DNA from: Gigantopelta aegis
Taxonomy: Eukaryota; Mollusca; Gastropoda; Neomphalida; Peltospiridae
Assembly (NCBI RefSeq): GCF_016097555.1
Contig: NC_054708.1
Coordinates: forward strand, 4,330,796-4,394,795
Length of the DNA stretch: 64,000 nucleotides
Direction of reading: 5' to 3'
Shown: positions 5,520 through 64,000 of the stretch, piece by piece
Layout: the number at the start of each line of letters is the position of its first letter
Numbering within the stretch: the stretch's first letter is position 1
Made by a program: the position numbers and the translations under genes
Notes under the pieces: model-generated
Database searches by the model: none
Told to the model about the DNA's origin: nothing
What the model saw: the letters and a program-made list of their open reading frames with translations, nothing else

Positions 5520-5674
5520 TTAGTAGATCGTGGCCGGGTAGCCTCGGAATACGATGTTGAAAATAACACAGCCGCCAACAAAGGCGATGAAAATAAACAG
5601 ATCCAACCACCCAGCGTTCTGCTGCCACGGATATCGTCTGCGATCTTTCATGAACGGTTTACCAAGCAGAAAAC
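5520..5674 (-). CDS. rhbdl: Rhomboid exon 9 (last TM and C-terminus)
   Basis: Acceptor ATTTTGCAG. Encodes FLLGKPFMKDRRRYPWQQNA, then the hydrophobic helix LDLFIFIAFVGGCVIFNIVF and a short tail RGYPATIY before TAA. FNI(V/F)F near the end is shared with RHBDL2/3 (FFNIFL, FWNIFA). Confidence 0.95.

Positions 5675-64000: not shown

Follow-up and report, generated by a model that had tools for sequence, protein, structure and literature searches.

The DNA analysed here, referred to throughout as the window, covers 64 kb of the 1.15-Gb genome of Gigantopelta aegis, and it holds two genes, rhomboid and DAXX, both on the minus strand. Both genes were modelled manually, using GT/AG sites, phase and homology, and the ends of the DAXX exons were adjusted by hand for phase; the rhomboid gene, for which nine exons were modelled, may extend 5′ of exon A. 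Between them the two models give 29 exon boundaries, in agreement with the figure of about 29 in the first-pass annotation.

5520..33499, minus strand: rhomboid gene, exons A-I (GT/AG sites and phase by hand; Pfam PF01694, E=3.4e-27)
33499-33371, 32852-32829, 25475-25248, 19741-19611 and 18383-18271, minus strand: rhomboid exons A-E
12256-12156, 10011-9918, 7092-6997 and 5674-5520 (stop), minus strand: rhomboid exons F-I
44677..64000, minus strand: DAXX gene, exons d1-d7 (PF20920, DAXX histone-binding, E=1.8e-23; PDB 4h9s, a human DAXX chain, E=7.5e-40)
64000 (open)-63611, 62083-61890, 60483-60357 and 58742-58641, minus strand: DAXX exons d1-d4
56289-56202, 54352-54241 and 46628-44677, minus strand: DAXX exons d5-d7

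Rhomboid exon F keeps the motif GASGG, and exon H (6997-7092, minus strand) reads IAAYGG, with a tyrosine where active rhomboids would have their catalytic histidine. Among relatives of solved structure, the top sequence matches are the inactive rhomboids iRhom1/2 (E 2e-7 to 4e-7), in an alignment that stops short of exon H, and the window rhomboid may be a pseudoprotease.

Tandem repeats account for 109 TRF rows in the window, and of the non-exon positions sampled about half (1510/2969) fall within detectable repeats. Other elements are also present. A LINE reverse-transcriptase frame at 27064-28659 (RVT_1, E=5.5e-25; region 26559-28977) is flanked on both sides by one 70-bp minisatellite, as if the array had been the insertion target. 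The segment 10117-10275 belongs in part to a dispersed repeat of about 157 bp that recurs with 90-94% identity at at least 39 other places in the genome, 40 of 2982 candidates having been scored. A tRNA match at 39078-39190 (minus strand; Rfam RF00005, 50 bits), which was not called by ARAGORN, is perhaps a SINE or an intron-bearing tRNA gene.

Exon boundaries copied into tandem arrays

Each boundary, with 40 nt on either side, was compared by gapped local alignment with the 3 kb flanking it in both directions. The splice site was found inside a tandem unit at seven of the 29 boundaries (scores 35-125); the remaining 22 scored 25 or less, and the reversed-sequence control 22 or less. Five of the seven are donors (rhomboid exons C/3, F/6, G/7 and H/8, and DAXX d2) and two are acceptors (rhomboid exon E/5 and DAXX d6), so that both 5′ and 3′ boundaries are affected. 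They are listed here, followed for contrast by arrays from the same two genes that hold no exon boundary.

6492..7036, minus strand: exon H (8) donor, one extra copy in a 119-bp unit with 40 exonic nt (score 125)
7552..9938, minus strand: exon G (7) donor, 42-bp array of about 57 copies (score 117)
11727..12177, minus strand: exon F (6) donor, 41-bp array of about 11 copies with 25 exonic nt (score 115)
18367..18491, minus strand: exon E (5) acceptor, 55-bp unit in 2.2 copies with 17 exonic nt (score 70)
20066..25247, minus strand: exon C (3) donor, adjoining 44-bp arrays with up to 22 exonic nt in some units (gapped test, score 62)
54338..55414, minus strand: DAXX d6 acceptor, 53-bp array of about 20 copies with 15 exonic nt (score 105)
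61083..61512, minus strand: DAXX d2 end and donor-like sequence, 53-bp array of about 8 copies (score 35, 72-74% identity)
12646..17401, unstranded: 43-bp array of more than 100 copies in intron E-F, without an exon boundary
29284..32520, unstranded: 57-bp array of 58 copies in intron B-C, without an exon boundary
48821..53958, unstranded: 64-bp arrays in the last DAXX intron, without an exon boundary

The boundary-copying arrays are real. Their units of 41-119 bp and their copy numbers, from 2 to over 100, are those given in the first-pass annotation, and its view that a process has recurred, rather than one repeat having spread, is upheld, the unit sequences at the seven loci being unrelated by eye. 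Its tally of nine duplicated boundaries is reduced to seven by the loss of both ends of rhomboid exon 2. The acceptor and the donor of this 24-nt exon (exon B, 32852-32829) showed no tandem copies in the gapped test, each scoring 0, and in a separate test their scores of 25 and 20, respectively, came from matches kilobases away.

The best case of a boundary array is that at exon G, where the unit consists of the last 21 nt of the exon, the donor and 21 nt of intron, and the GT is kept in 55 of 56 copies. A search of the assembly for a second haplotype of the exon G flank gave one full-length match among the 40 of 2982 candidates scored. At exon F the GT is kept in 8 of 10 copies, and at DAXX d6 the AG is kept in 19 of 19. 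The second copy of the exon H donor is overlapped by a 50-bp array at 6492-6844. Two cases are less simple. The exon C donor needs gaps, and an ungapped test missed it; TRF counts 113 copies of this unit within 20300-25247 and ends the array one base short of the boundary, although as many as 22 exonic bases are retained in other units. Of the seven, the DAXX d2 donor makes the weakest case, with its array about 380 bp downstream.

Recurrence in dynein genes and the behaviour of the copies

An independent sample was taken from dynein heavy-chain exons (AAA_6 family; 110 rows) and the 19 regions surrounding them, picked without regard to repeats. Ninety-one of the 110 rows were used; the 19 that were dropped comprised 16 on small contigs, one outside the regions and two that were second matches to the profile end. 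Introns were called from profile contiguity, and 61 of 68 were kept (seven had weak or inconsistent sites), giving a first set of 122 boundaries. A further 68 neighbouring boundaries were placed at the top-scoring splice site close to a conserved block, and these calls are less certain than the initial 122; two of them proved to be array copies themselves and were removed, leaving 66, and one boundary too near a locus end was dropped, for a final total of 187.

In the first set, 9 of 122 boundaries were spanned by tandem duplications in the ungapped test, with units of 30-130 bp in these nine cases. Over the full sample the count was 17/187 ungapped and 18/187 gapped (9.6%), the latter made up of 10 donors and 8 acceptors. 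Because 18 of 187 dynein boundaries are also duplicated, boundary-spanning arrays are a genome-wide phenomenon, common outside the window, and the recurrent local process read from the window alone is borne out elsewhere in the same genome.

Some dynein paralogues have exon ends that look alike by eye and carry donor duplications in both genes: L039 at 1432 and L045 at 1118 form one such pair, and L045 at 8373 and L052 at 8183 another (coding orientation). Such pairs perhaps reflect a sequence-specific proneness to duplication. In L044 (6777-7521, coding orientation) an exon end reading SGKTTIYR, P-loop-like by eye, recurs together with its donor every 172 bp or so, and three of these repeat copies had been called as boundaries.

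Fifteen ungapped cases, drawn from the window and from the initial 122 dynein boundaries, served to measure how the arrays behave. The proportion of exonic sequence per unit agrees with a uniform distribution (KS P=0.32, with DAXX exon 2 entered by its distance to the array and not by its unit length), and the unit length is divisible by 3 in 3 of the 15. The AG/GT signals are kept in 110 of 118 copies, which is about as copy identity predicts (mean per array 0.81 versus 0.80). Unit lengths, break positions and the decay of GT/AG thus all look neutral.

Exon interiors were seldom duplicated: 30 of 1489 sampled positions (2%) in the dynein genes and, in the window, 1 of 160 outside DAXX exon d7. 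In d7 itself 80 of 269 sampled positions were duplicated, 59 of them in a coding repeat at 45970-46385 (minus strand) with a period of 132 bp, or 44 codons and a multiple of 3, in the acidic tail; weaker repeats lie in d7 outside it. When the reading frame was followed past the five authentic donors, a stop was met within 2-16 codons in four (after 5 codons at exon F, 2 at H, 7 at C and 16 at d2), and at exon G, where the unit equals 14 codons, the frame stayed open for 202. The decoy adjoining the authentic d6 acceptor would meet a stop after VINKY. This behaviour fits that of neutral decoys, with selection acting as a filter on exons. Judging by the reading frame that the gene models keep, splicing would use the authentic site and pass over the decoys.

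Boundary arrays and chance placement

To ask whether arrays overlap boundaries more often than chance allows, we used as control non-exon positions, each weighted by 1/(copy number) because a long array covers many bases yet stems from one founder unit. Six versions of the test were run, with several cut-offs each, and the P values are nominal and uncorrected for this multiplicity.

Non-exon positions in detectable repeats made up 1572 of 7244 sampled in the dynein regions. With introns so crowded with minisatellites, chance placement of founders already predicts 14.6-17.3 hits among the 187 dynein boundaries. In the gapped test 18 were seen against 14.6 expected (P=0.22), or against 17.3 (P=0.46) once cross-locus repeats had been masked. 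At the base cut-off the ratio was 1.04-1.23, which is not significant, the expectation corresponding to 7.8-9.2% of boundaries; across the four score cut-offs applied, whether or not dispersed repeats were masked, it was 1.04-1.55 (1.06-1.55 at the higher ones; P 0.09-0.46), and 1.04-1.27 with masking. BLAST self-comparison gave 13-15 seen against 12.7-14.3 expected (ratio 0.99-1.08), and a count of TRF events in the first set gave 5/122 against 2.7 (P=0.14).

The ungapped test gave higher ratios. Unmasked, it found 17/187 against 9.4 (P=0.017) and, at higher identity, 16 against 6.7 (P=0.0015), an excess of up to 2.4-fold. With masking the figures became 17 against 11.7 (P=0.09), and the ratio ranged over 1.31-1.76 (Poisson P 0.05-0.19; bootstrap over regions P 0.008-0.17). 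A variant confined to the intron side gave 14 against 7.4 (P=0.02), with P=0.003-0.04 by bootstrap over regions and P=0.015-0.08 by sign-flip; masked, it gave 14 against 9.3 (P=0.09) and, at the most stringent cut-off, 12 where 6.8 were expected (P=0.046, bootstrap P=0.008).

In the window, which had been picked for the pattern, the gapped test at cut-off 30 gave 7/29 against 2.9-3.6 (P 0.03-0.07), the same test at cut-off 60 gave up to 6 against 1.9 (P=0.013), and TRF gave 5/28 against 1.4 (P=0.014). BLAST gave 5/29 against 3.1 (P=0.20), and a first version of the test, made on the window only, 6/29 against 2.9 (P=0.06).

Taken together, these versions place the boundary effect between none and about two-fold. 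The gapped ones, which put it near none, are trusted more because they find what the ungapped test missed, and boundary arrays look about as frequent as chance placement gives. A mild preference for boundaries may nevertheless exist, the versions running from near parity in the dynein sample by gapped alignment and BLAST to an excess of about two-fold in the window and in the unmasked ungapped dynein test.

The first-pass annotation had suggested that duplications in this genome may be biased to start at exon edges, a suggestion that finds no robust excess behind it in the dynein sample. Such a bias could have its cause in transcription-linked R-loops, in pausing at splice sites or in shared splice-site sequence that favours slippage or end-joining. 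The window counts and the unmasked ungapped and intron-side dynein results argue for it and against chance placement. Two further considerations tell against chance placement: straddling duplications are perhaps somewhat harmful, so that parity with the intron could mask a bias, and the alike exon ends of dynein paralogues are duplicated in two genes each. Against it stand the fall of the dynein ratio under gapped, masked alignment and BLAST and the modest result of the TRF event test. In addition, the exonic halves of boundary copies would change slowly, and old boundary duplications should therefore remain visible for longer. On balance we regard a true preference for exon edges as improbable. 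We would put at the same low level a wider proposition: that in this mollusc junctions seed tandem duplications up to about twice as readily as intron sequence elsewhere, and that this habit, met independently in amphioxus, reflects a mutational process linked to transcription or splicing through which introns in distant animal lineages have grown.

Interpretation and comparison with known arrays

Our working explanation, which we consider probable, is that these are minisatellites of the type called mirages in amphioxus, which arise anywhere, are purged from coding exons and are tolerated across boundaries. Short tandem duplications would arise at a high rate throughout non-coding DNA and would expand by slippage or unequal exchange. 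Those in coding exons would be removed by selection unless they were in frame within a tolerant stretch, and those lying wholly within introns would be tolerated. Arrays straddling a boundary would likewise survive, since the splice-site copy nearest the exon would still function and the others would lie within the intron as decoys. On this view a boundary marks where tolerated ground ends and is not a preferred birthplace.

A different reading takes the arrays for the remains of intron gain in progress, as in the Rogers model, in which duplicated segments that bear AGGT or cross a boundary become new introns. The units do carry GT or AG, and precedents exist in three reports: in potato, a gene acquired a new intron through a boundary-crossing tandem duplication (PMC4974935), variable boundary minisatellites are tied to new introns in duplicated human genes (PMC2812944), and intron gain was proposed for amphioxus globins (PMC3087553). 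In our models, by contrast, introns start at the first copy of a donor, or end at the last copy of an acceptor, the frame being kept, and donor read-through mostly meets an early stop. Moreover, in the one dynein comparison that could be made, the boundary duplicated in L039 and L045 has an apparent array-free counterpart in L052, and the intron there therefore seems to predate the arrays. On these grounds we rejected AGGT-mediated gain, and we hold the reading as a whole to be very unlikely.

It is hardly plausible, too, that the duplicated sites are used as tandem alternative donors lengthening the protein stepwise. The exon G array would lend itself to this, with its open frame, its 14-codon unit and a donor score equal to or above that of the authentic site in 42 of 56 copies (by a simple matrix whose splice-site weights are approximations), and in duplicated human genes boundary minisatellites are described as yielding alternative transcripts (PMC2812944). 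The early stops in four of the five donor read-throughs and after the first d6 decoy, together with the small number of units that are multiples of 3, led us to reject it. An assembly artefact is scarcely credible: arrays are hard to assemble and their copy numbers may be wrong, but the copies differ (mean identity to the authentic boundary 0.68-0.97) and so do the units from locus to locus.

Two testable questions follow, namely by what means the spliceosome settles on a single donor in a row of about 57 near-identical copies, and whether splice sites give rise to duplications more often than other sequence does. Annotation of such genomes will, be warned, meet rows of false splice sites.

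The host of the present arrays is a mollusc, and its assembly includes a haemocyanin beta-sandwich domain (PF14830, E=5.8e-33) of a family that we take to be molluscan. The closest parallel is in amphioxus, whose genome is about half of 1.15 Gb and for which the first Adh report is credited to Canestro (2002). The first-pass annotation knew of no description of a genome-wide habit of this kind; such arrays are described in amphioxus (PMC3087553, PMC3902484), and minisatellites at exon-intron boundaries in human segmental duplications (PMC2812944). Boundary-spanning tandem repeats were reported, and named mirages, in amphioxus Adh3, and are also said to occur in the globins BflGb6 and BflGb9, in troponin C (TnC) and in PGBD5; they lie on the 5′ or 3′ side, have units of 10 to about 160 bp and many copies with AG/GT, and are said to leave splicing undisturbed, with tests of splicing and of allele length reported (PMC3087553, PMC3902484). 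As in amphioxus, the arrays here span boundaries (7/29 in the window, 18/187 in the dynein genes), affect donors and acceptors alike, vary in unit length by locus and keep AG/GT in most copies. Mirages were named in a cephalochordate, which is not a strict criterion; the present arrays reach about 57 and over 100 copies and are known from the sequence of one assembly. Mirage arrays are thereby extended from amphioxus to a mollusc, with a frequency, from the dynein sample, of about one boundary in ten.

The other systems share part of the picture. In human segmental duplications, variable minisatellites are described at exon-intron boundaries, with units of 30 bp on average and 27 intron modifications (PMC2812944); the units are placed as here, but in the human case the paralogues are recent and transcripts support the new introns, whereas here single genes are involved and the introns are seemingly older than the arrays. 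In the potato RdRp gene, a tandem duplication crossing an intron-exon boundary made an intron (PMC4974935); the crossing is shared, but here no new intron is evident and one comparable intron looks older. Ordinary intronic minisatellites have the same unit sizes and head-to-tail arrays and lie in the same introns, but their units, unlike those described here, do not include coding sequence and a splice site. Molluscan arrays of this kind did not turn up in a search of the open-licence literature. The feature is thus real, widespread and known in kind, and what is new is the lineage and the frequency.
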